Shown piece after piece: positions 16,382 to 31,895 of a DNA stretch of 64,000 nt. The DNA is from Trichlorobacter thiogenes. GTDB taxonomy: Bacteria > Desulfobacterota > Desulfuromonadia > Geobacterales > Pseudopelobacteraceae. The notes under the pieces were generated by a model. That model saw only the letters and a list, made by a program, of their open reading frames with translations, did no database searches and was not told the DNA's origin. The stretch lies in assembly GCF_900167465.1 (NCBI RefSeq), contig NZ_FUWR01000001.1:117269-181268 (forward strand), given 5' to 3'. How positions within the stretch are numbered: position 1 is the stretch's first letter; each line of letters begins with the position of its first letter. The position numbers and the translations under genes were made by a program.

Positions 16382-18251
16382 TTCGGTAAGCCCGTTTTTG
16401 GTAGTTTGCAATGAAGCGCCGCAAACCTTCGGCAAGGTCAGGCACACCGTTTATTTCAGCTATTTCGATCTCCAATGCCAATAAGCCTTGACCGGCCTCA
16501 AGGTTGATGAGCGTCTCAAAAACATCCAATGCCTTCTTTTTATCTTTCTCTGTTGTAAACATTTTATACAGCACATCTGCGGCTATAAACTCCCGTACCG
16601 AAATAGGCTTACCTATTCTAGCACTGATCCATCCAACAAACTCTTCCACCATATCACCAATAAAATATGGATGAAGTGTCATTACCGGAGGAGATCCCTC
16701 TAACGCGTCGACGCGAAAGAAGCCATGGCGAACGTATGTGCTGGTCGGGGTGAGGGCACATCCGAACAGGCTCTGAACGTATTGATCGAACCAAGTATTG
16801 TGACAACCGACAAAAATAAACGGGCGCAGCAGTACGCCTTTTTGCAGAGCTTGCTGCTCACGTTCAGCATAGTGCTTGATTGTACGGCTGATCATACGGG
16901 CAAACTCACCAACAATCCTGCAATGTTCCGGCACCCGAAACCCGTCGTAATTAATTCTGGAAGGGAAGTTTTTCATTCCAAAATCAAACACAAAGGTCTC
17001 GCACGTACGATAGATGTCCTCTTCATTGAGAGGACAACAGGTTTCAGGCACATGAAGATTGCGATTCGTCCCTTCCAAAAGCAGCAAATCCTCCATGTAG
17101 CTTATTATGCCTAGGTGACCCAAGCCTTTTCGGAAGTCTGCAAGCATCTGAAGCATGGCCAGATTGTTGCCAAGGTAACCGACATTTGACGACGGGGGGG
17201 AGTTAACTATAATATCAGCAAGATAGGGAAACACATGTTGATCGTCGTAATAAAGGCTGGCGTCAAACGCATTACCTGCAATCGCGATGTGCGACAAAGG
17301 CTGTTGCATACCAGGCAGTATCCCCTCAAGGACTATTGCCATCCGTTTCGTATAGCTATCTAGCAACCGGAACTCTTCAACCGGCTCTTCCGGCATGCCC
17401 CAACAAAAAGCCTGCTCAGGAATATACGGTGTCTTCACATTGGTGAAAAAATCATCGATACTGTTGGCAGTCGATTTACCAGCCACATGATATACGGTCT
17501 GGATACGTGTATGGTCGCAGTGGAATGCGTACATCCGATCAAGAATAGTTCGGGTCTCGCCATTCAAAAGCCACATCCGCTTACAAAGATTGCTGTCCAC
17601 ATGCCAGCCCAGCACCATCTGCTCATTCATGCCGTGAATATCTATAAGCTGACTACGCAGGCAGAGTTGAAAATCTCCAGGGCCGTCAAACAGAATCTCC
17701 TTGCCGGCCGTGATTACTTCGTTGATATGGAGCCGCAAGCCCCACAGTCTGAAATGGTCAATAGTTTCAGCTGGGTTCATGCGGTCTGTGGACTCCCACA
17801 GGGATTCAGGCATCTCAAATCGGGGCAGTTCGTAAAAACCATCTGACAGATCGGCGACTAGCCGCGAGAGGGAGGTATTGGGCTGAAGCGGGGTAAACAC
17901 CATATCTGTGTTGGTGTTCAAAATCCAGCGATTGGCGGGGTTGCTCCTGCGAATGGCGATGTTGCGGCACAGGGGTTCCAGCACCTTGAATTTCGAGCCG
18001 TTCTTGCCTCGCTCGTATTGGTCCGGCCGAACTCGCAACACCCGCAACAGCTGTTTTGCCTTTGTTGTCAGAGTATCAGCTATTGACTCAGGGAATGTCG
18101 GTATGTCGTTGGGGGTATTGCAGTCGACAAAAATAATCTCGTCATCGCGATCATCAAGTAGGTGGGCAATACAGTTGATGCTGAGTGCAGCCCGTTTTGC
18201 CAGGTTGTACCCATAGGAATCATTGCGACCGTAAGTAATTACAGACACCAT
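16374..18251 (-). CDS. Large GT2-like protein, function unknown
   Basis: A 625-residue protein starting MVSVITYGRNDSYGYNLAKR, similar to the opening of GT2-type enzymes that read a conversational list of donors, followed by DEIIFVDCNTPNDIPTFP and WILNTNTDMVF (a D-x-D-like site). The first 300 residues look like a GT-A fold; the remainder (about 300-625) has no domain I recognise. Segments such as LRPFIFVGCHNTWFDQYVQ and HGFFRVDALEGSPP may belong to a separate capping domain. No signal peptide or membrane helix. It follows the AT-rich cassette genes (18273 onward in gene order) and overlaps the next gene by 8 bases. Glycan role inferred from neighbours. Confidence 0.75.
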   Translation of the reverse strand: MVSVITYGRNDSYGYNLAKRAALSINCIAHLLDDRDDEIIFVDCNTPNDIPTFPESIADTLTTKAKQLLRVLRVRPDQYERGKNGSKFKVLEPLCRNIAIRRSNPANRWILNTNTDMVFTPLQPNTSLSRLVADLSDGFYELPRFEMPESLWESTDRMNPAETIDHFRLWGLRLHINEVITAGKEILFDGPGDFQLCLRSQLIDIHGMNEQMVLGWHVDSNLCKRMWLLNGETRTILDRMYAFHCDHTRIQTVYHVAGKSTANSIDDFFTNVKTPYIPEQAFCWGMPEEPVEEFRLLDSYTKRMAIVLEGILPGMQQPLSHIAIAGNAFDASLYYDDQHVFPYLADIIVNSPPSSNVGYLGNNLAMLQMLADFRKGLGHLGIISYMEDLLLLEGTNRNLHVPETCCPLNEEDIYRTCETFVFDFGMKNFPSRINYDGFRVPEHCRIVGEFARMISRTIKHYAEREQQALQKGVLLRPFIFVGCHNTWFDQYVQSLFGCALTPTSTYVRHGFFRVDALEGSPPVMTLHPYFIGDMVEEFVGWISARIGKPISVREFIAADVLYKMFTTEKDKKKALDVFETLINLEAGQGLLALEIEIAEINGVPDLAEGLRRFIANYQKRAYRNG

Positions 18252-18272: not shown

Positions 18273-19235
18273 CTAAGATTTTATTTTCTTATATATACTC
18301 ATCATACGTTGTAAAATCGATGTGTTAATAACGCTATCCCGTTCACACACACGGACTTCCGAATGGGTTTCCAGGTATTTGGCAATAAAATAGTCAAGCC
18401 GCTCAGGTGGAGGGTTAAAATGGCAAGCGGCTATGATCATTTCACCGGCTTCAGTGCATCTACCAATAGCGAGGAAATTCTCCGCCATCCATAGATATTG
18501 CCCGGCAATAAATTGCCTTTTGGCCTCTGTTTTACTGCCCCTGAAATCTTCACTATTCAAGAATGCATCCAGCACCTCCAATCTACCGGGTAAATTCACA
18601 ATGAAATCAGATACAGTTGATGTATTGGAACCAGGATGCCTCCTGAAATTTGCTATGAACTCCTGCATATATACGATTTTATAGCGTCCACCCAATCGTA
18701 GCCATATATCGAACTCGCCACATTCGTTGTAATGATCGTATCCAATGGTATTGAAATATTTTGACTGGAAAAACGTCGCGCAGAAAGGGGGTACAACCTC
18801 GCAGCGAAGATATTTTTCAAGACTCCATGTATTTGAACGAGTTGACTGAATAATAGCACTATGTTCGTCAATTACATAGGCGTCACCATAAATTACAGCG
18901 GCATCGGGGTGGTGATTGAATCCATTGACAGCCCATGAAATGGCATGTGGCAACAGCTCTTCATCAGAAAGACAACTACCCCAAATGCTCCCTTGAATTC
19001 GCTTGATTACCTTGACAAAAGCCTCTCCTGGGCCAGAATCAGCCTCAGAAACCAGCTTAATACGGTCATCCTGATATTCACGTATAATTTCAGTAGTGCC
19101 ATCGGTTGATGCACCATCCTGAATCAAGAATTCAAAATTTGTGTAGTCTTGTCTAAGCACACTCTCAATACATTGTCTGATAAAAATTTTTCTGTTTTTA
19201 CAGATGCAAATAATTGATACCAAAGGATTATCCAT
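18273..19235 (-). CDS. GT2 family glycosyltransferase
   Basis: About 320 residues from the ATG at 19233-19235 (MDNPLVSIICICKN), which has AGGA 6 bases upstream; an 11-residue longer frame is possible. It shows GT-A features: VSIICICKNRKIFIRQCIESVL, FLIQDGASTDGTTEII and a WGSCLSDEELLPHAI region in place of the D-x-D. A 90-residue C-terminal helical tail follows the catalytic part. It is the first gene of the A+T-rich cassette on the side of the big glycosyltransferases and ends 21 bases before the next gene. Sugar and acceptor are unknown. Confidence 0.85.
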   Translation of the reverse strand: MDNPLVSIICICKNRKIFIRQCIESVLRQDYTNFEFLIQDGASTDGTTEIIREYQDDRIKLVSEADSGPGEAFVKVIKRIQGSIWGSCLSDEELLPHAISWAVNGFNHHPDAAVIYGDAYVIDEHSAIIQSTRSNTWSLEKYLRCEVVPPFCATFFQSKYFNTIGYDHYNECGEFDIWLRLGGRYKIVYMQEFIANFRRHPGSNTSTVSDFIVNLPGRLEVLDAFLNSEDFRGSKTEAKRQFIAGQYLWMAENFLAIGRCTEAGEMIIAACHFNPPPERLDYFIAKYLETHSEVRVCERDSVINTSILQRMMSIYKKIKS

Positions 19236-19246
19236 TTTCAATCCTG

Positions 19247-19933
19247 TTATCTCTGTCTGTATTGACAAAATACATGGTAATCTTCAGGAATGCCAATATC
19301 AGTGAAAAAGCCATGCTGTTTTAACCCAAACAACCTCAAACCGACCATACCTTGCAGTACATCAGTCTCAAATGAGCAAGCATCTTTAGAGAAGAAATTC
19401 ATGGTTTCCCGTTCCAGCACATATACACCGGCGTTTACTGCTCCACGGCCTGTCACTCCCTTTTCTGTGAAATGAGTAATCATACCGTCCGCATCAAGTT
19501 TAACAGCGCCGTACCTGTCAGTATCAGAAACCTCTGCCAACGCCATTGTAATCAGAGCTTTTTTTGCTTGATGATATAATACAAGCTCCGGCAAATCATT
19601 TTCAAAAAAAGAGTCCCCATTCATAATCAGGTAACGTTCAGCATAGAAGCGCTCCATAGCCAGTTTAATGGCACCACCTGTACCAAGCTGTGTCGCCTCA
19701 ATCGAATAGTTAATGGTCACGCCCCAGTTGGCTCCATTGCCGAAATAATCTTGTATACATTCTCGCCTATAGCCCACAGCAAGAACTATATCGGTAATAC
19801 TGGATTGCTTCAATTTGTTAACAAGAATCTCAAGAAAGGGACGGCCATTTATTGGGGCCATCGGTTTTGGCAAATCTTTTACAACGCCTTGCAGGCGTGT
19901 GCCTAAACCACCTGCAAGAATAATTGCCTTCAT
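19247..19933 (-). CDS. hddC: D-glycero-D-manno-heptose 1-phosphate guanylyltransferase-like
   Basis: A 228-residue nucleotidyltransferase from the ATG at 19931-19933; the longer frame (46 extra residues) lies within the Nudix gene and is unlikely. The start MKAIILAGGLGTRLQGVV is the nucleotide-binding G-G-x-G-T-R-L loop, followed by LPKPMAPINGRPFLE (the K-P-M motif) and MNGDSFFENDLPEL. HddC makes GDP-heptose from heptose-1-phosphate and GTP. The pairing with an hddA-like kinase one gene away supports that reading over generic sugar nucleotidyltransferase activity, but GTP versus other NTPs cannot be told from sequence. It overlaps the Nudix gene by 4 bases. Confidence 0.8.
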   Translation of the reverse strand: MKAIILAGGLGTRLQGVVKDLPKPMAPINGRPFLEILVNKLKQSSITDIVLAVGYRRECIQDYFGNGANWGVTINYSIEATQLGTGGAIKLAMERFYAERYLIMNGDSFFENDLPELVLYHQAKKALITMALAEVSDTDRYGAVKLDADGMITHFTEKGVTGRGAVNAGVYVLERETMNFFSKDACSFETDVLQGMVGLRLFGLKQHGFFTDIGIPEDYHVFCQYRQR

Positions 19934-20511
19934 TTTGTTGCCCCACAAGATGTTAACTGGCCAAAAGTGATTGTAACATAAGAAAGAAGCGTAATATCTG
20001 GCAGAAGTGGAATTTTCTGGGAGTTTATAGCTTGAAAAGCCTCTTCCCTGCTCAAAGCCACAAGTTCGCACTCTTCCATATCATTTACCAGCGGCTCGGC
20101 TGTGCCAGTCAGGCCATCAGCATAAAAGAGATGTGCCGTACAAATTCCACGCGTACCATCAACTGTAAACGCCCCCACCTGTATCCAAACTGAAGCAGTA
20201 TATCCTGTTTCCTCAAGTAGCTCCCGTTTTGCGGCTTCCAGCGGCTCTTCATCGGCATTAATGCCACCTGAAGGCGCTGTCAGGATGAAGCGCTTCAAAC
20301 ACTGCTTATACTGGCGCTCAAACAGAATCTTGCCATCTGGCAAAACAGCATGAATAAGTACATAGTCAGGCGACTCAATCCGATAATAGTCGTTAACAAT
20401 CCTGGAGCTCGGCAACTTGAGGGTATCCTTAACTACCGAAAACCACGGTTTAAACTCTGCACATTTTTCGGTTGTTATGGTCACCCATGGTTTTAATGGC
20501 ATCTGTATCAT
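19930..20511 (-). CDS. Nudix hydrolase
   Basis: A 193-residue protein with a complete Nudix box at about residues 82-105 (GGINADEEP, then AAKRELLEETGY), matching G-x5-E-x7-R-E-U-x-E-E-x-G-U. The preceding FILTAPSGG is like the ELPAGG segment of ADP-sugar or ADP-ribose pyrophosphatases. It is translated by overlap between the hddA-like kinase gene (ATGA at 20508-20511) and the hddC-like gene. It may control or hydrolyse a nucleotide-sugar intermediate; the substrate is an inference. No gmhB-type phosphatase is present in the window, but a Nudix enzyme would not replace it by known chemistry. Confidence 0.88.
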   Translation of the reverse strand: MIQMPLKPWVTITTEKCAEFKPWFSVVKDTLKLPSSRIVNDYYRIESPDYVLIHAVLPDGKILFERQYKQCLKRFILTAPSGGINADEEPLEAAKRELLEETGYTASVWIQVGAFTVDGTRGICTAHLFYADGLTGTAEPLVNDMEECELVALSREEAFQAINSQKIPLLPDITLLSYVTITFGQLTSCGATK

Positions 20512-21497
20512 TCCTCAGTAAAGTAGATAACCTGGCTGCCAAGTGTATCAAACCTGAACGGCACATACAGAAGGGATGAAAGATCGCTGACAAGTTTTTC
20601 CCTATGCTCAGGCAGCACAAAAAAAAGGATAAATCCGCCGCCGCCAGCCCCAAGTATTTTTCCGCCAAGTGCCCCTGATCGAAGTCCCTGTTCATATACA
20701 TCATCAATAAATTGTGTTGTAACCTTGCTCGAAAGCCGTTTCTTCAGCATCCAGCTCTCATGCATAAGTTTACCGAATTCATTATATTGTTCGATATCCC
20801 CATCTAAAACAGAACTCGCCACATCAACAATCGATTGCATCAGCGACAATTCATGTTTTTTATTATCCAGTTGCCTCAACTTATCTTCTTCAATCTGTGC
20901 AGCAAACCTCGCGAATCCGGTAAAAAAGAGCACCAGACAACTCTGAAGGTAGCTTGATTTTTCTGCTGCTATGGTAAACGGGCGTACTTCTATATTCTGG
21001 GGTGAAAACTCAATCCTGTTTAAGCCTCCGAATGCAGAGGCAACTTGGTCCTGTGACCCAACCGCCTCTTTTATCATATCCTGCTCTATATGAATTGCCT
21101 CAAGAGCTAACCGCTTTTTTGAGGCCATTTTCCCCTGAAGAGCATACAGAGCATGTAACAACCCAACCGTGAACGCAGAACTGGAGCCTAGCCCGGAATG
21201 AGATGGCAGGTCACCATCATGCTGCATAACCAAACCCTCTTGTACCTCCATAAAACGATAAGTCTCACGCACCGATGGGTGCTGAATCTCATCAATATTG
21301 TTAAAGGCTTCCTGCTTGGAAAAAAAAACCGTCTTGTGTCTATAGTCAAAAAAGGGGGGCAGTTTGCGCAAGCTTACATAGCAGAACTTGTCAATGGAAG
21401 TGGAAAGTACCGATCCTCCGTTCTCCCGATACCAGAGTGGAAAATCAGTACCCCCACCGAAAAATGAAATTCGGAAAGGTGTTCGTGTAATAATCAT
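20508..21497 (-). CDS. hddA: D-glycero-D-manno-heptose 7-phosphate kinase-like (GHMP)
   Basis: A 329-residue GHMP-family kinase with RTPFRISFFGGGTDFPLWY at the start (typical of HddA and fucokinase-like enzymes), LPSHSGLGSSSAFTVGLLHAL as the ATP-binding glycine/serine loop and KILGAGGGGFILFFV as the C-terminal motif. HddA phosphorylates heptose 7-phosphate at C1, one step before HddC. The hddC-like gene next but one makes the heptose reading more likely than fucose/mannose kinase. No gmhA or gmhB gene is in the window, so sedoheptulose-7-phosphate isomerase and phosphatase would have to come from elsewhere. Confidence 0.8.
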   Translation of the reverse strand: MIITRTPFRISFFGGGTDFPLWYRENGGSVLSTSIDKFCYVSLRKLPPFFDYRHKTVFFSKQEAFNNIDEIQHPSVRETYRFMEVQEGLVMQHDGDLPSHSGLGSSSAFTVGLLHALYALQGKMASKKRLALEAIHIEQDMIKEAVGSQDQVASAFGGLNRIEFSPQNIEVRPFTIAAEKSSYLQSCLVLFFTGFARFAAQIEEDKLRQLDNKKHELSLMQSIVDVASSVLDGDIEQYNEFGKLMHESWMLKKRLSSKVTTQFIDDVYEQGLRSGALGGKILGAGGGGFILFFVLPEHREKLVSDLSSLLYVPFRFDTLGSQVIYFTEE

Positions 21498-21522
21498 GGT
21501 ATAGATCCTACCTCAGTGTATA

Positions 21523-22917
21523 TTATGAGTGTAGCCTGAATATCTTATTCTCAATGTAATACCGATAAATTATCTGCCGTATTTTTTTGAAAATAACATT
21601 TGAGGGAATCACCTTGATCATTCGTATAGCCAACACATCCAAAGGAAAAGGTAATTTACACATCAAAGCTCCAAGTAGAAAGATATTAAATCTGACATCC
21701 TTCTCCCTTGCCGAAAAACAGGTTAGTGCCGATCGCTCTGAACAACCTTTCAGATCAGAACTGTGGCTGCTAATATCAAGCAGGCCATGTGCTACACAAT
21801 AGTCATAAAGTTCTGTTCCGTACATAGGAACTGTAGTGGAATAGCTCGGGTAGGTCACCTTACCTTTTTTACACATTTGAATACTGGCTAGTTCATCTTC
21901 AAGTGTCGATTCAGGCGCTGCAAGCATGAAGTTTACCCATGTATTTATGCCGTATGAGTGTATTTTTTTTAAAGTTGCTTCAATATCAATATCACGCATA
22001 TTTCGCTTGAGAATTTTCTCGCGCACATGCTTTGACGTACTATCTACTGATAGATGAACAGAATAACAGCCCGCCTTCTTGAGTAACCTCAACAAATCAT
22101 CATCAACTGTGTCAAGCCGGAGATAACAATTAAAAGGAATAGCAATACGTTTAGAATATTTGTCAGCAAACTCTTCGACCCATGAGTCTGCTTTAAGGGA
22201 AAAACAGTCATCACCAAACTTTACAAAATCTGTTCGATATCTTGATTTTACATATTCAATCTCGGCGATAACCCGTTCCACAGAAAACCTACGGACAAAT
22301 TGCCCTTTGCCACGATAGAGCTCGTGATAATGGTTGTTACAGCAATATGTGCATTTGTATGGACAGCCCCGTGTTGCATAAAAGGTTTTTTTGGGAGTGT
22401 CCTTAAGGTATGAATGTGACAGGGTAATATCGCGGTCGGGCAATGGGAGGGCATCCAGATTGCTTATTAACGAACGGACAGGATTTGTCGTATTTTTTGT
22501 AATCAGATTGGGGATGTCATCATACGATCGTCCACTTTTAATTCTATCGAGCAACTCTCCAAAAGCCTCTTCACCCTCTCCAACGCAGTATACATCCATT
22601 TTACTTTGATTGAATGTCTCAGGTGAAAATGTTGCTTGTGGCCCCCCTAGGATGGATATGAAATCAAAGTGTCTGCTGGCGGTTTCGTGTGCCGATATGA
22701 TTGAATTAAAGCCAACAACATTCGCAGAATAAGCGACAACTTCTGGCATCAAAATATTTAAGATTGATTCAAAATTATCACTATCCAGAACGCAGAGAGA
22801 TGTTTGCCAGCCGCGTTGTTTAGCTATTGCTGAAAGAAAAGGTACTGCTATATGGTCTGCGTAGTCTAGCTGCGCAATAACAAAGAGAACATTCATTTCA
22901 GCCAAGGGAAACCCCAT
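21523..22917 (-). CDS. B12-binding-type radical SAM protein
   Basis: A protein of up to 464 residues. N-terminal Rossmann-like part (to about 160) resembles the cobalamin-binding domain of class B radical SAM enzymes (NVLFVIAQLDYADHIAVPFLSA, then FISILGGPQATFSPE, CVGEGEEAFGELL), although no classical D-x-H-x-x-G is visible. The radical SAM motif C185-P-Y-K-C189-T-Y-C192 follows, with FVKFGDDCFSL and VHLSVDSTSKHVREK beyond. Start either at ATG 22917 (coupled to the previous stop) or at ATG 22896, where the domain begins. Such enzymes methylate or rearrange unreactive carbons; here a sugar substrate is plausible by context only. Confidence 0.85.
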   Translation of the reverse strand: MGFPLAEMNVLFVIAQLDYADHIAVPFLSAIAKQRGWQTSLCVLDSDNFESILNILMPEVVAYSANVVGFNSIISAHETASRHFDFISILGGPQATFSPETFNQSKMDVYCVGEGEEAFGELLDRIKSGRSYDDIPNLITKNTTNPVRSLISNLDALPLPDRDITLSHSYLKDTPKKTFYATRGCPYKCTYCCNNHYHELYRGKGQFVRRFSVERVIAEIEYVKSRYRTDFVKFGDDCFSLKADSWVEEFADKYSKRIAIPFNCYLRLDTVDDDLLRLLKKAGCYSVHLSVDSTSKHVREKILKRNMRDIDIEATLKKIHSYGINTWVNFMLAAPESTLEDELASIQMCKKGKVTYPSYSTTVPMYGTELYDYCVAHGLLDISSHSSDLKGCSERSALTCFSAREKDVRFNIFLLGALMCKLPFPLDVLAIRMIKVIPSNVIFKKIRQIIYRYYIENKIFRLHS

Positions 22918-22920
22918 CTA

Positions 22921-23433
22921 TCATACAAAACGTCCTTCCTCGTCACGGCGGGATATGATCGGATTTTTGACAGGCCACCATATATTAAGTTTCGGATCAT
23001 TCCAGGTGTAGGTAAATTGCCCCTTGGGATTATAGTAGGTAGTCTGTTTGTAATGGAATATTGTTGATTCACTAATAACAAGATGTCCATTGCCATGTTT
23101 GGGGGGGACAAGAATTTGCCAGCGGTTTTTGTCAGAGAGGGTAAATGATTGCCACTTGCCGAAATCCGATGACTCTGTATCGCAATTAACTACGACAAAA
23201 TAGAATTTCCCATGCAAACACGAAATCAATTTCCAGGTCTCGGCATCACCGTGGATACCTCTAATTACGTTTTGAGTTGAAATAGAGATATCGTCCTGAA
23301 TGAATTTACATGTAATCCCCTTGGAAATATATTCGCTTTCATTGTAGGTTTCCACGTATTCGCCGCGAAAGTCTTCAAAAAACTGTGGTTTAATCAACAT
23401 AACGCCAGCCAATTGAGTTGTTTCGACTTCCAT
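22921..23433 (-). CDS. RmlC-like sugar 3,5-epimerase
   Basis: About 170 residues from the ATG at 23431-23433 (MEVETTQLAGVML), which has AGGAG 6 bases before it. The cupin fold shows the family pattern: FEDFRGEYVETYNES, VIRGIHGDAETWKLISCLHGKF (the catalytic histidine in R-G-x-H) and PPKHGNGHLVIS. RmlC-type enzymes epimerise C3 and/or C5 of 4-keto nucleotide sugars. In GDP-heptose pathways a homologous epimerase acts on the GDP-6-deoxy-4-keto-heptose, which fits the Gmd/DmhA-like gene at 29109. It overlaps nothing but sits 3 bases from the epimerase gene upstream. Confidence 0.85.
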   Translation of the reverse strand: MEVETTQLAGVMLIKPQFFEDFRGEYVETYNESEYISKGITCKFIQDDISISTQNVIRGIHGDAETWKLISCLHGKFYFVVVNCDTESSDFGKWQSFTLSDKNRWQILVPPKHGNGHLVISESTIFHYKQTTYYNPKGQFTYTWNDPKLNIWWPVKNPIISRRDEEGRFV

Positions 23434-23435
23434 TG

Positions 23436-24422
23436 CTAGCTCCTGAAATAGTTTTTCTTTTTTTGATATTCGTTTTGATTGGATAAAAACCACTCCCATG
23501 TCTCTTTTAATCCATCTACAAGTGACGTTTTTGGAGCATATCCGATTGAAAGCTTTGCTAACGATATGTCCATTACCCGAACAGGCGCGCCGGATGGTTT
23601 CGTAATATCAAATTCATAATTAAAATTGATGAAGCTGCGGAGAGCTTCCACAAGCTCTTTTACAGAATACCCTTTCCCGCTGCCAAGGTTGACAAACCCT
23701 CCTTTAGTCCCATGATATAAGGCAAGGATTACACCTTCAGCAACATCACGGCTGTATGCAAAATCTCTGATTGCAGTCCCATCTCCCCAAATTTTGACAG
23801 GGTTCTCGCCGTTATGAATTCGACACATGATTGAGGGGATTACCATAGCGTTTTCCGGGTCGAAATTGTCACCTGGACCATAGACATTGCAAGGGCGGAC
23901 AATCGCAAAATTCTCCATGTCATACTGAACCTTGTATGCATAAACCTGTAGTTCAGCCACTCTCTTTGCCCATCCGGCAAAATCCATCGGTTCACTGTCA
24001 AGACGATAATCAGATTCTCGAAATACCTCCGCATTCGAGTAAGCTCCAATCGAGCTTGTATATACAAGTTTTGATACGTTGTTAATTCTCGATGCTTCCA
24101 ACATATTGGTATTCATCATCAAGGTTGGGACAAAATGGCTCGCCAATTGTGTGCGCGAAACCTCAATAGAACCCTTTATGCCGGCGAGGTGGAAAACGAA
24201 ATCAACTCCATTTGTTATCTCCTTGCAAAAGTTATAATCGGTAATGTCACCTAGAATGTGTTCAGCATGATCATGAACTATCACTTTGTCGAGCGAGACA
24301 ATTTTTACTCTAGCACCAGCATCACACAGAATGCCTACAACCTGTCTACCGATTAAGCCTGTGCCACCAGTTACAAGAATTTTTTTCCCTATAAATTCTT
24401 CTGATACTGTTTTATCTAACAT
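23436..24422 (-). CDS. NAD-dependent epimerase/dehydratase with atypical catalytic motif
   Basis: About 328 residues from the ATG at 24420-24422. It is an extended short-chain dehydrogenase: GKKILVTGGTGLIGRQVV (cofactor loop G-x-x-G-x-x-G), LVYTSSIGAYS (catalytic Thr/Ser region), NFAIVRPCNVYGPGDNF, FVNLGSGKGYSVKEL. The usual Y-x-x-x-K is replaced by MDFAGWAKRVAE: the lysine is there but the residue four before it is Ala. It is flanked by the RmlC-like epimerase and the TylF-like methyltransferase. Likely acts on a keto nucleotide-sugar as epimerase or reductase. Confidence 0.85.
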   Translation of the reverse strand: MLDKTVSEEFIGKKILVTGGTGLIGRQVVGILCDAGARVKIVSLDKVIVHDHAEHILGDITDYNFCKEITNGVDFVFHLAGIKGSIEVSRTQLASHFVPTLMMNTNMLEASRINNVSKLVYTSSIGAYSNAEVFRESDYRLDSEPMDFAGWAKRVAELQVYAYKVQYDMENFAIVRPCNVYGPGDNFDPENAMVIPSIMCRIHNGENPVKIWGDGTAIRDFAYSRDVAEGVILALYHGTKGGFVNLGSGKGYSVKELVEALRSFINFNYEFDITKPSGAPVRVMDISLAKLSIGYAPKTSLVDGLKETWEWFLSNQNEYQKKKNYFRS

Positions 24423-24488
24423 TATCAATCACCCTAACGAAAAAGGAATTAACTAACCGACACAAATCTCACAAGACGTTTTTGAATC

Positions 24489-25250
24489 TTATTCAAAAAT
24501 ACAATATGACGTTCTTGATGTGTAAGGATACCTCTTTAATTTTATATTATTGAGACCGATAACTTCGTTGAGAGCAACCGTTTCACCAGGGCAATCATGG
24601 TCATTTAATTCATCAAAAGCCAGTAAGCTTCCTTTAACAAGATGTGGTTTGATCGCCTCAAGACAATTTTTTGTTGGCTCATATAAATCAACATCAAAAA
24701 AAGCCATTGCTACAATTGTCTCGGGATTTTCTTTCAGATATTTTACTATTTCTTCAGAAGCATCTCCTACCCTGATGTCATATTTTTTTATGTGTGAGAG
24801 AGGATTATCATTTTCTTGGTACTGCATAATACGGTCTAAATATTCATAATAATTGTCCGTACACGATAAACTTCCTTCACTAATCAGTGCACATCCACGA
24901 TTGTCCTTGTCGCTTACAGTTGGAAATCCTGTAAAAGTGTCAAATCCGACAACTTTACGCATTCTATTGAACGGCTCATAAATCCCACGTAATGCAGAAA
25001 AAAGTGAGAGATTCTGACCCCATCGCGTACCAAATTCTATAACAATACCTTGTACATCAACAATTTGTTTGTAGATGTGATCCATAAAAAGAATCCTGGA
25101 AAGGTTTTTAGAGCTAAGGAATAAACCTAAATTAGATAATATTGCGCTGTCTGGGATAGGACAATCATAGAATTGTTTCACAAAGTTATTGCGAATTTCA
25201 TCTTCAGATGGACTTCTATAAAGTTCCTGAGCACCAATATTCTTTTCCAT
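24489..25250 (-). CDS. TylF/MycF-type macrocin O-methyltransferase-like
   Basis: A 253-residue protein with GIVIEFGTRWGQNLSLFSAL (SAM motif), VVGFDTFTGFP, MAFFDVDLYEPTKNCLEAI and GSLLAFDELNDHDCPGET, the pattern of the TylF family of Mg-dependent sugar O-methyltransferases (Asp pair for metal binding). The start at ATG 25250 has GGAG 6 bases before it. Databases often mislabel this family as CoA-transferase. It probably methylates a sugar of the cassette. It lies between the epimerase gene (60-base gap) and the aldo/keto reductase gene. Confidence 0.8.
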   Translation of the reverse strand: MEKNIGAQELYRSPSEDEIRNNFVKQFYDCPIPDSAILSNLGLFLSSKNLSRILFMDHIYKQIVDVQGIVIEFGTRWGQNLSLFSALRGIYEPFNRMRKVVGFDTFTGFPTVSDKDNRGCALISEGSLSCTDNYYEYLDRIMQYQENDNPLSHIKKYDIRVGDASEEIVKYLKENPETIVAMAFFDVDLYEPTKNCLEAIKPHLVKGSLLAFDELNDHDCPGETVALNEVIGLNNIKLKRYPYTSRTSYCIFE

Positions 25251-25286
25251 TCCATTCTCCTTGTTTGTTTGTTGACTATATATCTA

Positions 25287-26354
25287 TTACTCTCGGATCA
25301 ATGCCCTCACAGCTACATTGCCATTATACGCAATTTGCCAGGCCCAATATCTTAGTTTACCTTCAAACAGTTCATATTCAAAAACAGGATCATCTATCTT
25401 AACAACTCGTATTGGTTTTATCGGTACACCCTTCGCGATTAACTTGGCTAAATCATTCGCCGAAGGTACGAAACCATCTAGCCCTTTTGTGTCAACTTTG
25501 ATTCTGCCTGTTGGAATTTCTAAAATCTCTGTAAGAAAAGTAGTAGTAATAAAGTCATAATCAGCCGTATTTAGCTCTAAATCCGTTGAGGCTGAGTTAG
25601 ATAGTAGATGAGATGCGTTGCGGCTCATCGGGATTGCCACAATATTGTTATTCTCTGTGAGCCACTTGAGAGCTAATTGTGAAACGTTTGTATTGTATTT
25701 ATGAGCAATTCTGAGCAGATCATCTTGTTTTGATTTATCATAAGTAATCTTTCCTGAACACAATGGAGTGTACGCTAAAACAGTTATTTTGTTCTGAGTG
25801 CAAAATGGAATCAGATCCTGTTCTGCTGTTCTATCAAAAAGATTGTATTCAACCTGGACGGAGGCAATATTGCCGACAGATAGTAAAGCTTCTTCAAGTT
25901 CCGGTACTGAAAAGTTACTCACGCCAATAGCTCTGATTTTTCCATCTGCTTGTAATTTAATCATAGCTTCTAATGTTTCAGAAACCGGAATAGTTGGGTT
26001 TGGCCAATGGATCTGATATAAGTCAATGTAATCAGTTCTCAGGCGTTTCAAACTATTCTCTGCAGAAGCGATAACATTGTCGTAGTGAAGATGTTCCGGC
26101 GATACTTTGGTCGCAATAACGACTTTGTCTCTCTGCCCCTTGGTCGCAATACCCACGAGCTCCTCAGAATGTCCTTTTCCATATGCTTCTGCAGTATCGA
26201 TAAAACTCATGCCAAGCTCAATCCCTTGTTTTAACACTTTGATGGCTTGATTATCGTTAGTGTCATCACGGGAAAAATAGCCCCCAATACCCATGGTCCC
26301 CATGCCGATTGCAGGAATAAGGGTATTTGTATTACCAAGCTGCTTATACTGCAT
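25287..26354 (-). CDS. Aldo/keto reductase with C-terminal ParB/sulfiredoxin-like domain
   Basis: About 355 residues from the ATG at 26352-26354. Residues 1 to about 285 are a complete aldo/keto reductase with the catalytic tetrad D53 (FIDTAEAYG), Y58, K83 (ATK) and H116 (QIHWPNPT). Reading straight on, residues about 290-355 form a second domain: PSANDLAKLIAKGVPIKPI, RVVKIDDP, and YELFEGKLRYWAWQIA, which matches the ParB-N/sulfiredoxin fold pattern (P-I-x-V ... G-x-x-R-x-x-A). AKRs are normally about 280-330 residues, so the extension is added. It could reduce a keto-sugar; the second domain may bind a nucleotide or phosphorylated sugar. The fusion is in one open frame with no frameshift. 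Confidence 0.85.
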   Translation of the reverse strand: MQYKQLGNTNTLIPAIGMGTMGIGGYFSRDDTNDNQAIKVLKQGIELGMSFIDTAEAYGKGHSEELVGIATKGQRDKVVIATKVSPEHLHYDNVIASAENSLKRLRTDYIDLYQIHWPNPTIPVSETLEAMIKLQADGKIRAIGVSNFSVPELEEALLSVGNIASVQVEYNLFDRTAEQDLIPFCTQNKITVLAYTPLCSGKITYDKSKQDDLLRIAHKYNTNVSQLALKWLTENNNIVAIPMSRNASHLLSNSASTDLELNTADYDFITTTFLTEILEIPTGRIKVDTKGLDGFVPSANDLAKLIAKGVPIKPIRVVKIDDPVFEYELFEGKLRYWAWQIAYNGNVAVRALIRE

Positions 26355-27285
26355 GATCAATAGCACTCATTATTTCTGATACAACGGTGTCCACATCAGT
26401 ACCGTCAAGTCGACGCATAAACTCTCTTGATCCAACATCACGACGAGACACATCTGGAATTCCAAACATTTTTACAGGAATCATAATGTTATTTGTTACA
26501 AGAGTTTCAGCTATAATTGATCCAATCCCACCAATTATCGTGTGCTCTTCAAGCGTAAAAACACCTTTGAATTTCCTAAGCATTTCTACCAGCCCCTTCG
26601 TATTTACAGGTTTTAAACGGTAGAGGTCGATGACAGCTATGGCAATCCCTCGTTTTTCGCATTCTTTTGCAATGAATTGTGCCTGATTTACCATAATACC
26701 TGTGGCAATAATTGCGTAATCTATACCCGCCGTTATTTCGGAAACGCCAGAAGAAAAATCAGTGTCCGGTTGATATATTTGATCGAATGGACCTTTATCA
26801 AAGCGGATATAGCAGGGACCTTGACTGTTATAGGCAATGTGGATTGATGCCGCACATAGAGAACAGTCGGATGGACTCAGGATGGTAATCCCCGGAATGG
26901 CCCGCATAACTGCAACATCTTCGGTAATATGGTGTGTGGGGCCATCTGAGCTATACACGTAACCTGTTCCCATACCAATTATGGTAACAGGACGCTGCAT
27001 GCAGCAGATGTCGATTTTGATCTGCTCCAGGCAACGCAAGGTGACAAAGTTTGAAATGCCATACACAAATACTTTTTTCCCGCTCATAGATAAGCCAGCA
27101 GCAACACTCATCATGTTTTGTTCAGCGATTCCAACATTATAAAACTGCTCTGGAATATTTTTCTTGAATAGAGTGAGCATATATGCGCCGGTATCAGCAC
27201 TTAGAACAATGACATCTTTGTCCTTGAGAGCAAGCTCATAGAGCTCTTCGAATATGGCATCTCTTGCATCTTCGTAAATTTTCAT
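26344..27285 (-). CDS. Transketolase-like C-terminal subunit
   Basis: A 313-residue protein with the pyrimidine-binding and C-terminal domains of transketolase as one chain: NVGIAEQNMMSVAAGLS carries the catalytic Glu that activates ThDP, GPTHHITEDVAVMRAIPG is a ThDP-side loop with paired histidines, and GIDYAIIATGIMVNQAQFIAK opens the C-terminal domain. The ATG overlaps the N-terminal subunit stop by ATGA at 27282-27285, so the two are made in equal amounts. Split transketolases occur in several bacteria and archaea, often in secondary sugar clusters. Here it may transfer a ketol unit to a sugar intermediate. Confidence 0.88.
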   Translation of the reverse strand: MKIYEDARDAIFEELYELALKDKDVIVLSADTGAYMLTLFKKNIPEQFYNVGIAEQNMMSVAAGLSMSGKKVFVYGISNFVTLRCLEQIKIDICCMQRPVTIIGMGTGYVYSSDGPTHHITEDVAVMRAIPGITILSPSDCSLCAASIHIAYNSQGPCYIRFDKGPFDQIYQPDTDFSSGVSEITAGIDYAIIATGIMVNQAQFIAKECEKRGIAIAVIDLYRLKPVNTKGLVEMLRKFKGVFTLEEHTIIGGIGSIIAETLVTNNIMIPVKMFGIPDVSRRDVGSREFMRRLDGTDVDTVVSEIMSAIDHAV

Positions 27286-28094
27286 CGTCCAAGCTCCTCT
27301 ATCGCCTGCGCTATAAACTCACCTTTAGGCAATGTATGATGAGCTTGGGGGGTGTTTTCAAGCGAAGATATTCCCTTGCCTTTTATCGTCTGGGCAATAA
27401 TCATTCGAGGCTTCCCTGTCTGCTCAAGATTACGTAAAATATTTATTACTTGTTCGATAGAATGTCCGTCCTGAATGATTGTTACTTCCCAACCAAATGC
27501 TTTCCACTTGTCAGCAAGAGGCTCGAGTCCGGCATTGTTTTCGGTAAACTCTTCAGACCCGAGAAGATTGCGGTCGGTAATGGCAATCAGATTGCTCAAC
27601 TTGTGGTGTGCAGCGAACATGGCCGCTTCCCAAACAGAGCCTTCCTGAGATTCACCATCGCCAATTATGACATATATCCGATATTCCTTACTGTCCAGCT
27701 TGGCACCTAAAGCAATTCCAGCAGCGACACCGAGTCCATGTCCGAGCGAACCTGAAATAATTTCTATTCCAGACACATGACTGTCACAATGCCCTCCAAG
27801 CAAGCTGCCATCCTGAGTATAAGAATCCAGATCGGATTCTTTTATTAAGCCAAGATCTGCAAGAATTACATAGAGCGTATTATTGGAATGCCCTTTACTC
27901 ATGATGAATCGGTCTCTATCTGGGTGCATGGGATTATTAGGATCAAAATTTAATATCCCGCCATAATAGAGGGCAACCAGCAGCTCTGTGCTTGAGAGGG
28001 AACCTCCGAGGTGCCCCTTACCTGCATGCAGTACAACCTCAAAGGCTCGTTTACGGATGTATTTTGCTTTTTGTACGAGTTGTTCGCTAGTCAT
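27282..28094 (-). CDS. Transketolase-like N-terminal subunit (ThDP pyrophosphate-binding)
   Basis: About 270 residues from the ATG at 28092-28094, which has AAGGGA 6 bases before it; the longer frame uses TTG. It shows VVLHAGKGHLGGSLSSTELL, FIMSKGHSNNTLYVIL, SGSLGHGLGVAAGIALGA and the ThDP motif GDGESQEGSVWEAAM extending to ITDRN. Together with the next gene it makes a heterodimeric transketolase. A dedicated transketolase in a nucleotide-sugar cassette could supply sedoheptulose-7-phosphate for heptose synthesis or add a two-carbon branch; sequence cannot decide. Confidence 0.88.
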   Translation of the reverse strand: MTSEQLVQKAKYIRKRAFEVVLHAGKGHLGGSLSSTELLVALYYGGILNFDPNNPMHPDRDRFIMSKGHSNNTLYVILADLGLIKESDLDSYTQDGSLLGGHCDSHVSGIEIISGSLGHGLGVAAGIALGAKLDSKEYRIYVIIGDGESQEGSVWEAAMFAAHHKLSNLIAITDRNLLGSEEFTENNAGLEPLADKWKAFGWEVTIIQDGHSIEQVINILRNLEQTGKPRMIIAQTIKGKGISSLENTPQAHHTLPKGEFIAQAIEELGR

Positions 28095-28105
28095 GTGTTG
28101 TCCCT

Positions 28106-29059
28106 TCAAGACAGTGTACTCTTGTACCAGTTAATCGTCTTTTCAAGTCCTTCTCTAAACGATATTTTCGAAGAAAAATTGAGTACATTCAGCGCTTTTG
28201 TATTATCTATTTTCCTTTGCTTGATCGTCATTGGTTTTGTTGAATTGAAAGAGTATTTTCCGTCATAGTGTGTTAATTCACTGATATTTTCGACCGCTTC
28301 TCCAATTGTTTGCAATGATCCGGCAGCAATGTTGTAAACTTCAAAACCGGAAGTTTTTTCGAAGGCTAGCAATACTCCCCTGACAAAATCATCAATATAA
28401 ATAAAATCCCGTACAACGTCCGGAGTACCCCAAACTTCAATTGGATTTTGTTTTTCAACAAACTTTCGTATAAGAGCAGGTAGCACATGAGATGCAATGA
28501 GGTCAAAACTGCTGTAAGGGCCATATGCATTAGATGGCCTAATAATAAGGATCTCCATTCCATACCACTTATAATAGAACTCTGCGAGTTTTTCGGAATA
28601 TCTCTTCATCCAGGCCGGACCGAAATAGTTGCCCGGGGGATCATCAAGGAATGCATCTTCTTCTTTCAAAGGACGCTCATACTCAGGGTATACGGCAGAG
28701 CTACTAATAAAAACGAATTTTTTGACTTTTGCTTTTGCAGCAGCATCTAAAACATGTGAGTTTATAAATACGTTTTCTGTAATTTGTGCTACCGGATTTG
28801 TTGCCATTTCATGTGCACCTGATGTGTGTGCAGCGCAGTGGAAAAAATAATCGATTCCTTCAGGAAGTTCGGCGCTTTTGCTAAAATCACATATTATCTC
28901 GGTAACATTTTCAGTATTTGCTTTCCAAAAGCTCTGCTTATCTTTATGCAGGGATTGGACATAAACCTTTGCACCTCTGCTCAATAATTCTTTGGCAAAA
29001 TTTGTTCCTAAGAAACCAGTTCTACCGCCTGAAATATATACATTCTTGCCATTAAACAT
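28106..29059 (-). CDS. NAD-dependent epimerase/reductase with atypical catalytic motif
   Basis: A 317-residue extended SDR: NVYISGGRTGFLGTNFAKELL (cofactor loop), FVFISSSAVYPEYERPL (catalytic Ser), ILIIRPSNAYGPYSSFD, VRDFIYIDDFVRGVLLAF. The Y-x-x-x-K tyrosine position is occupied by Pro (FGPAWMKRYSEK); tyrosines lie seven before and two after the lysine. A GGGGAGA site precedes the ATG. It may be the C4 reductase or an epimerase for the 4-keto intermediate made by the 29109 dehydratase. It shares the tryptophan two before the lysine with the 23436 gene product. Confidence 0.83.
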   Translation of the reverse strand: MFNGKNVYISGGRTGFLGTNFAKELLSRGAKVYVQSLHKDKQSFWKANTENVTEIICDFSKSAELPEGIDYFFHCAAHTSGAHEMATNPVAQITENVFINSHVLDAAAKAKVKKFVFISSSAVYPEYERPLKEEDAFLDDPPGNYFGPAWMKRYSEKLAEFYYKWYGMEILIIRPSNAYGPYSSFDLIASHVLPALIRKFVEKQNPIEVWGTPDVVRDFIYIDDFVRGVLLAFEKTSGFEVYNIAAGSLQTIGEAVENISELTHYDGKYSFNSTKPMTIKQRKIDNTKALNVLNFSSKISFREGLEKTINWYKSTLS

Positions 29060-29108: not shown

Positions 29109-30119
29109 TTATCTTGTCAAAAAGGTTTTTTCAGACATAACTTTTCCACGCCAGTAATCGAGAAGATCCTGCATGGTCTTCTCGAACGATATCTCAGGTT
29201 TCCACCCGGTGTGGGTCCAAAATTTAGTAGTATCAGGCACCTGGAGATCCGCATCAAGCGGGCGCAGTCGAGCCTGTTCAGTCTCTACACGGATGCTGTC
29301 CCGACAAGTTGATATAGAAATAAGATGCTTTAACATATCCTCCACAGTACATGAAAATGCCCCTCCGACATTGTAGTACGCGCCGGGAACAGGATTAACA
29401 GTCACAAGCATATAGTAGGCTCGTACAGCATCGCGCACATCCGCCCATGTCCTCATGGACTGAAGATTACCGGTCTTTACTATCGGCGGGATCAGCCCCC
29501 TCTCGATCATGGCTACCTGTTTTGCAAAGGTGGATTCGGCAAATACATCCCCTCGTCGTGGTCCGGTATGGGTAAACATGCGTGTAACAAGTACTTTCTG
29601 TCCATAGGCCTCGGCATGAAACCGCCCTACCAGATCGGTGCCAGTTTTGGAAATGGCATAAGGCGAAGCCGGGTGAAACGAGCACTCCTCATCAATAGGT
29701 AGTTTATCTTGCGAGACACGCCCAAAAACTTCTGAAGAGGAACAAACATGAATAATAGGGTCTATCCCTGGGCAACGGCGTAGCGCCTCTAAGAGGCGTT
29801 CCGTTCCAAGGATATTAGTGTCAAGCGTTTGGATCGGGGCAGTAAAGCTTGTGGATGGATAACTTTGGGCTGCTAGATGAAATACGTAATCAGGCCGGGT
29901 TTCCTCAACTGCATTGACCAGTGAAACGTAGTCACAAAGATCGCCATTGATAAAGTGTACCCGCTCTTTACGGTTGGCCCGGTCAAGCAGATGCTCGACG
30001 TTATCCAGCGGACTGCGCCATCGGCACATTCCGTAAATGATCCAGTCAGTGTTTTCGAGGAGAAAATCAGCCAGGTGTGATCCGACCATGCCGGTTATGC
30101 CGGTTATCAGGACATTCAT
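29109..30119 (-). CDS. GDP-mannose/GDP-heptose 4,6-dehydratase-like
   Basis: A 336-residue protein of the Gmd family: VLITGITGMVGSHLADFLLE, YGMCRWRSPLDNVEHL, YVFHLAAQSYPSTSF, SSSEVFGRVSQ, an intact SPYAISKTGTDLVGRF (Y-x-x-x-K) and TWADVRDAVRAYY. Gmd acts on GDP-mannose; close relatives (DmhA/WcbK) act on GDP-D-glycero-D-manno-heptose. With hddA- and hddC-like genes in the same cassette the heptose substrate is the more economical guess. It catalyses formation of the 4-keto-6-deoxy sugar that the RmlC-like and SDR enzymes would then process. The gap to the NAD synthetase gene upstream is 103 bases and holds no clear hairpin. Confidence 0.82.
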   Translation of the reverse strand: MNVLITGITGMVGSHLADFLLENTDWIIYGMCRWRSPLDNVEHLLDRANRKERVHFINGDLCDYVSLVNAVEETRPDYVFHLAAQSYPSTSFTAPIQTLDTNILGTERLLEALRRCPGIDPIIHVCSSSEVFGRVSQDKLPIDEECSFHPASPYAISKTGTDLVGRFHAEAYGQKVLVTRMFTHTGPRRGDVFAESTFAKQVAMIERGLIPPIVKTGNLQSMRTWADVRDAVRAYYMLVTVNPVPGAYYNVGGAFSCTVEDMLKHLISISTCRDSIRVETEQARLRPLDADLQVPDTTKFWTHTGWKPEISFEKTMQDLLDYWRGKVMSEKTFLTR

Positions 30120-30222: not shown

Positions 30223-31044
30223 CTATTTGCCCCAATCCCTCGAATACCTGAAATCCCGATCAATGGTCCGGTTAGACACTTTTGCGATGACCGGTAGCCG
30301 CCGCTTGAAGTGGGAGTTTTGGACCTTTTTGTAGATATCGTCAACAAAGTCCACTTCGAGGCCTTCCGCCAGCAGCTCCTCTGTGATCTTTCGCTGATCC
30401 ACCATACGGTAGAGCAGTTCATCAACCTGACGGTACGAGAATCCCAGTTCTTCCTCGTCGGTCTGACCGGCCCAGAGATCGGCCGAGGGGTTCTTCTCGA
30501 TCACTTCTTTGGGGACTCCCATTGCCTCTGACAACTGCCAGACCTGACTCTTGTAGAGGTCGCCGATCGGGTTGAGGGCTGAAGCCATGTCGCCGTAGAG
30601 GGTGCCGTAGCCGAGCAACAGTTCGGTTTTGTTGCTGGTGCCCAGCACCAGGGCCGAGAGCAGGGCCGAGTGGTCGAACAGGATGGTCATGCGTTCGCGG
30701 GCCATCTTGTTGCCGCGCCGCATGTTGTTTGCCTCCGGGAACATATCGAAGTAGGAGTCAACCATCGGGGTGATTGGCACAACGCTGAAGTTAACACCGC
30801 AAGCCTGAGCCACCAGTCGTGCGTGGGTCTCGCTTTCCGGGTTGCTGGACTTGTAGGGCATGCAGATGGCGTGGACATTCTCCGGACCCAGGGCCTCGGC
30901 GGCTATGAAGACCACCAGGGCCGAGTCGATACCGCCCGACAACCCCAGGACGGCTTTCTGTACCCCTACCTTATGCACCTCATCCTTGACAAAGCCGACC
31001 AGAATCTTTCGTAACAGGTCTGTGTTGGCTGAAAGTCCTCCCAT
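30223..31044 (-). CDS. nadE: NAD(+) synthetase, synthetase subunit
   Basis: A 273-residue NAD synthetase: [18 protein letters not shown] is the PP-loop that binds ATP, followed by [38 protein letters not shown] and [21 protein letters not shown], the family hallmark. It adenylates nicotinic acid adenine dinucleotide and amidates it. The start shares one base with the stop of the amidohydrolase gene (TAATG). It lacks the fused glutaminase domain of long NadE, which is instead the separate neighbour. It has higher G+C than the sugar cassette. Confidence 0.92.
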
Positions 31045-31895
31045 TACTGCCCCCTTTTAGATTCGATGCGCCGCAGTTCCTGCATAGTGACGAACAGGTT
31101 CTCATCCCGCAGCATTGGGAAGAAAATCCTTTCGCGACGCAAGGCCCCTTCATCGAGAGTAGCCCTGACAGAATCCTCTTCAAGGATTTTTCCGCGAATT
31201 ACGGATTCTCCCGAGGGTGCGATGTATTCCGACCCGCCCCAGAAGTTGACACCGTCTTCGTAGCCGACCCGGTTACAGTAGAGTACTCGGCAGTTCAGGA
31301 ACATGGCAGTGGTGGAGGTCAACTGCTGCCAGGCGCGGGCCGACCCAAGGATTTCGCCTTCAATCCCCCGGCCGGGACTGCTGGAGAGGCAGATCAGTAT
31401 TGAGGCGCCATCCATGGCCAGGATGTAAGAGCTGGAGAGATGCCACATGTCTTCGCAGATGAGCAGTCCCATGCGGCCAAACTTGGTATCGAAGGCGCGG
31501 AACCGCTCCCCCCGGGCCAGGTAGCGCTGTTCGTCGAACAGGCCGTAGGTGGGGAGGTAGACCTTACGGTGCAGATGTCTGATTTCGCCGTCTTCAAGAT
31601 AGAGGGCCGTGTTGTAAAAACGGTAATCGTCAGTTACTTCCACTAGGCCGATTGCAATGGAGATTTGTCGGGAGAGTTCTTTGAGGTGTGTGATCTCGGA
31701 AGAGTCGATCCTGAGTGCCACTTCAGGTACTAGATCTTTAAGGAAATAGCCGGTGACGGCCAGTTCAGGAAAGACAATCAGGTCAACCTTATCAGCAGCA
31801 GCTTTCTTGATTCGTTCTTCAATGAGCACCAGGTTTTCTGCAACGCAACCGAGCTTAGGTTTGAGTTGTGCAAGAGTTACGCTGATACCGGTCAT
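31044..31895 (-). CDS. Carbon-nitrogen hydrolase, probable glutaminase partner of NadE
   Basis: A 283-residue nitrilase-fold protein with the full catalytic triad: E44 ([10 protein letters not shown]), K111 ([14 protein letters not shown]) and C147 (LLICEDMW). In glutamine-dependent NAD synthetase this domain is the N-terminal part of one polypeptide and supplies ammonia; here it is a separate chain next to and coupled with NadE. The segments [20 protein letters not shown] are typical of NadE-type glutaminases rather than generic nitrilases. The pair likely acts as a split glutamine-dependent NAD synthetase. It sits 3 bases after the methyltransferase gene. Confidence 0.85.

Follow-up and report, generated by a model that had tools for sequence, protein, structure and literature searches.

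In a window of 64,000 nucleotides from Trichlorobacter thiogenes (contig NZ_FUWR01000001.1, positions 117,269 to 181,268 of the forward strand; all positions below count from the first letter of this stretch), an A+T-rich cassette at 18273-29059 and the dmhA-like gene beside it carry the genes of an unusual nucleotide-sugar pathway. With a probability that we would put at about 0.58, its product is a C-branched, O-methylated GDP-6-deoxy-heptose used to glycosylate proteins or the cell surface, in this organism most likely flagellin. The existence of the conserved gene set is well supported and the heptose scaffold strongly so, and branching of the scaffold by a split transketolase is our best inference from the sequences; a branched or chain-extended sugar, as proposed in a preliminary description of this DNA, is the most likely product. 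What is new in the cassette would be the transketolase itself, which belongs to a clade that, judging from its aligned residues, has lost phosphate-pocket residues and is linked to heptose genes.

Enzymes of the probable GDP-heptose scaffold

For the 4,6-dehydratase of the GDP-6-deoxy-heptose pathways of Campylobacter jejuni the window has a clear counterpart, and for the kinase, the guanylyltransferase and the RmlC-type epimerase it has probable ones. The DmhA-like GDP-heptose 4,6-dehydratase (29109-30119, minus strand, as are all cassette genes) matches PDB entry 7us5 (4.1e-104) far ahead of the second PDB match (8.6e-50), and the YxxxK motif is present in 14 of 14 dmhA sequences. For the HddC-like sugar-1-phosphate guanylyltransferase (19247-19954) the best NCBIfam match is HddC (1e-63), and the closest PDB chains are 5xhw and 6jq8, both named 'putative 6-deoxy-D-mannoheptose pathway protein' (1.4e-41). 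The HddA-like GHMP kinase (20508-21497; NCBIfam HddA, 2.5e-41) is closest to 3k85, named D-glycero-D-manno-heptose 1-phosphate kinase, with 4usm and 4usk (sugar kinase) and 4n3o (named heptose 7-phosphate kinase) as further PDB relatives, and would convert heptose 7-phosphate to the 1,7-bisphosphate. The RmlC-like 3- or 3,5-epimerase (22921-23442) is less sharply placed, its best eight PDB rows spanning only 8 bits and the ninth lying 11 bits lower: four of the eight are named GDP-4-keto-heptose epimerases (8db5, 8dco, 8dcl, 8dak), three are named TDP-4-keto-rhamnose 3,5-epimerase (7an4, 7ang, 7ani; the top two rows are among these), and 7m14 bears both heptose and rhamnose names. It is probably an epimerase of the GDP-4-keto-heptose type.

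Elsewhere in the genome a GmhB scores 182 bits against TIGR00213, above the curated cut-off of 149.6 bits, and there is one match to SIS_2 (5.4e-29), a family that is that of GmhA but is wider than GmhA. Together with the homologies of the scaffold enzymes, these make GDP-6-deoxy-4-keto-heptose a likely intermediate, and the scaffold is, by sequence, very probably GDP-6-deoxy-heptose.

The Campylobacter jejuni routes use 4,6-dehydratases, C3/C5-epimerases and C4-reductases, the 6-deoxy- and 3,6-dideoxy-heptose routes finishing with a C4-reductase, and the words 'transketolase' and 'branched' have 0 occurrences in the paper that describes them (PMC10680097). In contrast, the window adds a split transketolase, an aldo/keto reductase (AKR) and an O-methyltransferase (MT), and both of its reductase-like short-chain dehydrogenases/reductases (SDRs) lack the catalytic Tyr. 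With the scaffold enzymes nearest or near-nearest to solved heptose-pathway enzymes and the extra genes recurring alongside them (see below), the earlier proposal of a GDP-heptose-derived pathway that exceeds the Campylobacter set is supported.

A clade of split transketolases with an altered phosphate pocket

The transketolase is encoded by two genes, one for the N part with the thiamine diphosphate (ThDP)-binding domain (27282-28109; PF00456, 3.3e-42; closest PDB entry the split transketolase 6yak, 6.1e-65) and one for the C part with the pyrimidine-binding and C-terminal domains (26344-27285; PF02779, 6.7e-31; PF02780, 2.9e-19; closest PDB entry the split transketolase 6yaj, 1.1e-50). Split genes, the ThDP domain and retention of Glu411 and His473 identify it as a split-gene transketolase; residue numbers follow E. 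coli and were placed by motif. In a tree of 52 C-part sequences the window falls into a clade of 25 rows (SH-aLRT 99), and the same clade (24 rows after removal of the duplicate L060) is recovered with SH-aLRT 98 when 23 pocket positions are left out; L078 is in neither tree.

With regard to the canonical phosphate-binding set Ser385/His461/Arg520, the window's C part has no Ser at the 385 motif, Gly at position 461 and Lys at position 520. Across the 24 clade rows the Ser385 motif is replaced by a Gly-Ala type sequence in nearly all, position 461 is Gly in every row, and position 520 is Lys in 19, Gly in four and Arg in one. Glu411 (24/24) and His473 (23/24) are kept, and Asp469 is present in 19. 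In the 27 rows outside the clade, position 461 is His in 14, Gly in nine, Arg in two, and Met and Ser in one each, and position 520 is Arg in 18, Lys in seven, and Ser and Gly in one each; the canonical rows were chosen by their His461, so that 14 of 14 at this column reflects the choice and is not a test, the independent checks being the tree without pocket columns and the gene neighbourhoods. In the N part, quick regular expressions found the ThDP motif in 24 of 25 sequences, and looser patterns gave SKGH in 20, GSLGHG in 18 and an H26-like motif in 14 of 25, which falls short of full conservation.

Ser, His and Arg do occur at positions 385, 461 and 520 both in the solved split transketolase 6yaj and in a separate transketolase of 671 aa encoded by the same genome, which also has two further full-length genes of the transketolase type, encoding 627 and 645 aa, that by eye resemble DXS. 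As the genome has this separate enzyme, with His461 and Arg520, central metabolism does not require the split pair, and its assignment as the central-metabolism transketolase was rejected in view of the canonical 671-aa enzyme and the altered pocket residues.

There is, in our estimate, an even chance that these sequences belong to a widespread, so far unrecognised class of split transketolases that have a remodelled phosphate pocket and act on nucleotide-linked keto sugars, those of this cassette family building C9 branched GDP-sugars (4-C-hydroxyacetyl or 4-C-dihydroxyethyl 6-deoxy-heptoses) for the surface and flagellin glycans of bacteria in many phyla. At two loci (L037:4755-6668 and L044:2435-4351) the C part lies inside an open reading frame (ORF) of 638-639 aa; in L044 (639 aa) it is fused to the methyltransferase-like protein famD, elsewhere a neighbour, and the ORF was matched as famD in L126. 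This fusion suggests that the C part and famD may work together.

Conservation of the gene set across phyla

Named genomes were scanned with an alignment of two MT sequences, a search that depends on two MT peptide patterns, and 23 loci were obtained. Both transketolase parts are present in 17 of them, and the other six, several of which lie at a contig edge, have fewer genes. Within the 17, AKR and SDR2 genes occur in 15 each, SDR1 and hddA in 13 each, the two subunits of an E1-type enzyme (E1 alpha and E1 beta; enzymes of this type attach the acetyl branches of antibiotics) in 12 each, rmlC, dmhA and hddC in 11 each, the NUDIX gene in four, and the B12-binding radical S-adenosylmethionine (SAM) gene, at an identity of at least 45%, in two. 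The 17 loci come from Planctomycetota, Heliobacterium, Levybacteria, Omnitrophota, SAR324, Chloroflexi with Dehalococcoidia, Desulfomonile and Geobacteraceae, Alphaproteobacteria, Deltaproteobacteria and Verrucomicrobia, so that the same genes recur across about ten phyla. Not all loci count separately: L028 and L029 closely resemble each other, as do L033 and L035, L030 and L031 stem from one metagenome-assembled genome (MAG), L041 is G360, and L042 and L044 are contigs of G454 and G470, respectively. The search of other genomes for the same block, as suggested earlier, gave 17 loci with the transketolase pair. L028 and L029 have nearly the gene content of the window, without NUDIX, and their B12 radical SAM copies are 62% identical to that of the window. 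The dmhA copies in the clusters L028, L029, L036 and L039 are 75-79% identical.

To counter the bias of an MT-based search, 297 genomes of the phylum were searched with a transketolase profile and the wider flanks of 27 matches were inspected. The five clade loci found in this way contain hddA (5), hddC (4), rmlC (3), dmhA (1) and MT (1), and AKR in none. Of hddA, hddC, dmhA, rmlC, MT, AKR, SDR1 and SDR2, none was found at the 13 canonical split-transketolase loci, which gave one NUDIX match; these loci are all from the organism's own phylum, and four have short flanks (4.2, 7.8, 12.2 and 12.6 kb). The recurrence in other genomes, with the canonical loci as control, shows that the genes belong together. 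At seven other loci with Gly-type split transketolases (L093 and L096-L101) no heptose kinase gene (hddA) was found in the flanks searched, a count that leaves aside L112 and L117, which have no clear motif class; these enzymes are possibly further sugar-branching enzymes on other scaffolds. In the literature searched we found no description of the conserved gene set, and the terms used gave no match for transketolase with flagellin, glycosylation and heptose, nor for GDP-6-deoxy with heptose and transketolase.

A protein of about 150 aa and of unknown family (L032:5272-5724 and equivalents), with no Pfam match above cut-off, is encoded in 10 of the 17 clusters; a counterpart was not recognised in the window's block.

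A proposed route and its alternatives

On the preferred reading, sedoheptulose 7-phosphate would be converted to a heptose phosphate by GmhB and the GmhA-family protein encoded elsewhere, phosphorylated by the HddA-like kinase and guanylylated by the HddC-like enzyme; DmhA would then dehydrate the product to GDP-6-deoxy-4-keto-heptose, and the RmlC-like protein would epimerise it. The 4-keto group would be left unreduced, and the two-subunit transketolase would transfer a hydroxyacetyl (C2) unit to this group, the product being a tertiary alcohol that bears a 4-C-glycoloyl branch. The AKR, perhaps anchored to the nucleotide through its ParB-fold domain, might reduce the branch ketone, and the CalS11-like MT might O-methylate the nucleotide sugar. 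SDR1, SDR2, the B12-binding radical SAM enzyme (21523-22917; PF04055, 6.1e-18; PF02310, 2.3e-8) and the NUDIX hydrolase (19930-20511; PF00293, 4.8e-10) could serve in product tuning or editing, and either the GT2 glycosyltransferase (18273-19235; PF00535, 1.6e-18; GC content 0.410) or the GT41/TPR transferases of the flagellin island would hand the sugar on.

Single steps of this route have parallels in antibiotic biosynthesis. For miharamycin and amipurimycin, a 2025 review gives a transfer of hydroxyacetyl units to keto sugars as the proposed role of split-gene transketolases, and lists 13 putative ones, all from Streptomycetes and none characterised in vitro (PMC12247030). Common to these systems and the window is a two-gene transketolase beside sugar enzymes, and a hydroxyacetyl transfer to a ketone is proposed there and would take place here; the GDP-heptose-linked clade, in contrast, spans many phyla. 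The AKR Pau7 of paulomycin biosynthesis acts as the reductase of an acetyl branch at C4 whose formation is ascribed to an E1-type pair (PMC4753412). The E1-type enzymes AviB1/AviB2 and Pau11/Pau12, with Pau7 in paulomycin, follow the same logic of a ThDP-dependent C2 branch and subsequent reduction by an AKR, and the window's set of ketone, ThDP enzyme, AKR and MT would by analogy transfer this logic to a heptose. The window genome itself differs from the AviB1/AviB2 type in having no E1 alpha/beta pair, its E1_dh matches being weak and confined to its four transketolase-type genes.

The AKR gene (25287-26366; PF00248, 6.4e-66) encodes a reductase with an additional C-terminal domain. The structural model has a mean confidence (pLDDT) of 94.9 and its reductase part a Z score of 40.9 to Tm1743; the four positions of the AKR tetrad are conserved in each of the three sequences first aligned. 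As AKRs filled the structure search with the full-length protein, the last approximately 84 residues were modelled alone (pLDDT 91.6), with Foldseek matches to 7ol9 (1.1e-5) and 6ky4 (2.9e-5) and Z scores of 10.5 to Noc and 10.3 to sulfiredoxin, which identify a ParB/sulfiredoxin fold. Among four such C-terminal domains searched against Pfam, the L031 copy matched ParB_N at 2.3e-4, below cut-off, another at 0.13, and two, the window's own domain having no match, gave none. The domain might hold the nucleotide part of the substrate. A search with the AKR of 395 genomes of the phylum found mostly ordinary AKRs and, besides the own genome, near-full-length matches only in G360 (two copies), and viral contigs yielded no relative.

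The MT (24489-25250) is clearly homologous to CalS11 (PDB 4gf5/3tos, named TDP-rhamnose 3'-O-methyltransferase; 2.9e-65), which acts in a different sugar nucleotide context. SDR1 (28106-29059; NCBIfam Fcl, 2.3e-44) and SDR2 (23436-24428; 2.1e-42) resemble GDP-fucose synthase below the Fcl cut-off, and none of the 48 matched sequences of these two and their paralogues has the Tyr of YxxxK (one further sequence was unmatched); a HMMER alignment to GDP-fucose synthase and the motif rule differ by one residue at YxxxK, the Tyr being absent by either. SDRs without this Tyr fit a pathway that keeps the C4 ketone for carbon-carbon bond formation, which is only suggestive.

Several observations weigh against the transketolase as the branching enzyme of a heptose pathway. 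The HddA- and HddC-like proteins score below their equivalog cut-offs (142 bits against 600 and 215 bits against 300, respectively). Arg358 is conserved in 24 of 24 clade rows, its column being unreliable in the canonical rows, and part of the phosphate pocket therefore remains; Gly461, in turn, is found in nine of 27 rows outside the clade and so also marks further, unassigned split transketolases. In four of the 17 MT-found loci hddA is not in the flank, namely L031 (contig edge), L040 (where hddC is present), and L034 and L046 (neither hddA nor hddC nor dmhA). Since the AKR is found in none and the MT is missing from four of the five transketolase-found clade loci, the link of both to the clade rests partly on the MT-based search. 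SDRs without the catalytic Tyr can be active, and a reduction of C4 by one of them through a different residue would leave no ketone for the branching step.

Three other explanations have to be considered. As HddA and HddC lie below the cut-offs, another sugar phosphate is possible as substrate, and the split transketolase might merely supply sedoheptulose 7-phosphate or an octulose phosphate to the kinase, leading to an unbranched O-methylated 6-deoxy-heptose or a chain-extended GDP-octose. Co-occurrence of hddA with the clade and the action of HddA-like kinases on sugar phosphates would be in line with such a role, as would lincosamide octose biosynthesis, in which a related kinase and guanylyltransferase act after a transaldolase. 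However, a full-length transketolase is already present in the genome, the clade as a whole lacks Ser385 and His461, DmhA looks heptose-specific, and the transketolase pair occurs without hddA in L034 and L046, and we regard this supply role as unlikely. Slightly less probable still is that the C2 unit goes to another ketone instead of that at C4 (e.g., at C3 after oxidation by an SDR) or that the transketolase works on a separate sugar, the heptose genes of the cluster then making a second one. ThDP-dependent branching of the E1 type is described at C3 or C4 (PMC12247030), and the seven Gly-type loci without hddA indicate that this chemistry is not tied to heptose; nevertheless, a 4-keto intermediate is what DmhA is expected to produce, and heptose and transketolase genes are interleaved in the window and in L028, L029, L036, L039 and L049. 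That an ordinary 6-deoxy-heptose pathway is accompanied by decayed or unrelated passenger genes is very improbable: the scaffold alone would yield GDP-6-deoxy-heptose if one SDR reduced C4, but the frames are open, the genes recur in about ten phyla, and all 24 rows retain the transketolase Glu411, as all three aligned sequences retain the AKR tetrad positions.

Should branching of GDP-heptose by the transketolase prove true, it would provide a route to high-carbon branched sugars and, in the combination of a Gly-type split transketolase with an HddA-like kinase, a gene signature for such glycans in uncultured phyla. Ketone-accepting transketolases are, according to the 2025 review, only predicted and uncharacterised (PMC12247030); sequences of the clade would make them directly testable and could offer new biocatalysts for tertiary alcohols.

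Composition and edges of the cassette

The A+T-rich stretch and its edges had been proposed from inspection of the sequence, and both are borne out by base composition. The mean GC content is 0.412 over 18273-29059 as compared to 0.493 in the left and 0.532 in the right flank, and a free fit of two breakpoints to 100-base bins places the edges at 18200 and 29200 (means 0.493, 0.413 and 0.532). In 1-kb steps it is 0.499 at 17-18 kb, 0.370-0.451 across 18-29 kb, 0.480 at 29-30 kb and 0.53-0.56 at 30-34 kb. The composition is thus not uniform across the edges, and the GC content at third codon positions is lower inside as well, with a mean of 0.380 for the 12 cassette genes versus 0.487 on the left and 0.598 on the right (Mann-Whitney, p = 3e-7, 51 listed window genes).

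The block consists of 12 minus-strand genes with open frames that overlap or are closely spaced. All gene types that the preliminary description had named are present, with the exception that the dmhA-like gene lies just outside, on the upstream side with respect to transcription. Its GC content of 0.493 is ordinary, so that the pathway does not coincide with the A+T-rich block; conversely, the block also includes the NUDIX and GT2 genes, which were absent from the earlier list.

The flagellin island and a probable exchange of cassettes

The window also carries a flagellin island with FlbT, flagellin, GT41- and tetratricopeptide repeat (TPR)-type transferases and a radical SAM protein. G025, a member of the family, has this island too, with identities of 54% for FlbT, 61% for flagellin, 61% for GTb, 91% for MT2, 78-85% for Ugd and 90% for rSAM2; between GTb and MT2, however, G025 (L101) has a different, radical SAM-rich cassette with another Gly-type split transketolase. 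Since G025 shares the flagellin island but not its cassette, the one in the window looks like an exchangeable glycosylation cassette. In G417, of the same genus, a variant cassette adjoins the TPRb gene (74%); a more complete variant occurs in G464, where flagellin is encoded on the same contig. The MT is found in eight of 60 genomes of the family (this genome, three others with copies at 59-61% identity and a further four at 26-48%), and the copies from four loci of Planctomycetota and Heliobacterium (L028, L029, L030, L032) reach 68-69% identity. This patchy distribution, together with the composition, supports an exchange of the cassette by horizontal transfer, and flagellin glycosylation islands appear to swap sugar-making cassettes among relatives.

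That the sugar is carried on flagellin, as had been suggested, is supported by position only, i.e., by the island, by the synteny with G025 and by the loci L028, L039 and L041, in which flagellin and cluster share a contig. The pathway is not, however, specific for flagellin. The flagellin search covered 21 of the 23 MT-found loci (all except L031 and L048; L030, L042, L045, L047 and L050 are without the transketolase C part in the DNA examined) and gave a match in 11 of 21 other carrier genomes; 10 of 21, most of them MAGs and maybe partial, gave none, and a flagellin-only sugar was rejected for this reason.

Three TPR proteins that resemble the O-GlcNAc-transferase type lie beside flagellin (5043-11601), of which two were scanned and both match GT41, and a radical SAM gene (6871-7776) is located between two of them. 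A protein of 625 aa (16374-18251) has no Pfam match and was found, among 23 relatives searched, in the own genome only, with a 61% identical copy in the G025 island; GTb likewise has no Pfam match. Between dmhA and MT2 there are NadE-like and nitrilase-like genes (30223-31895), and a second, full NadE is encoded elsewhere in the genome. Instead of serving NAD synthesis, this pair may act in the amidation of a sugar acid.

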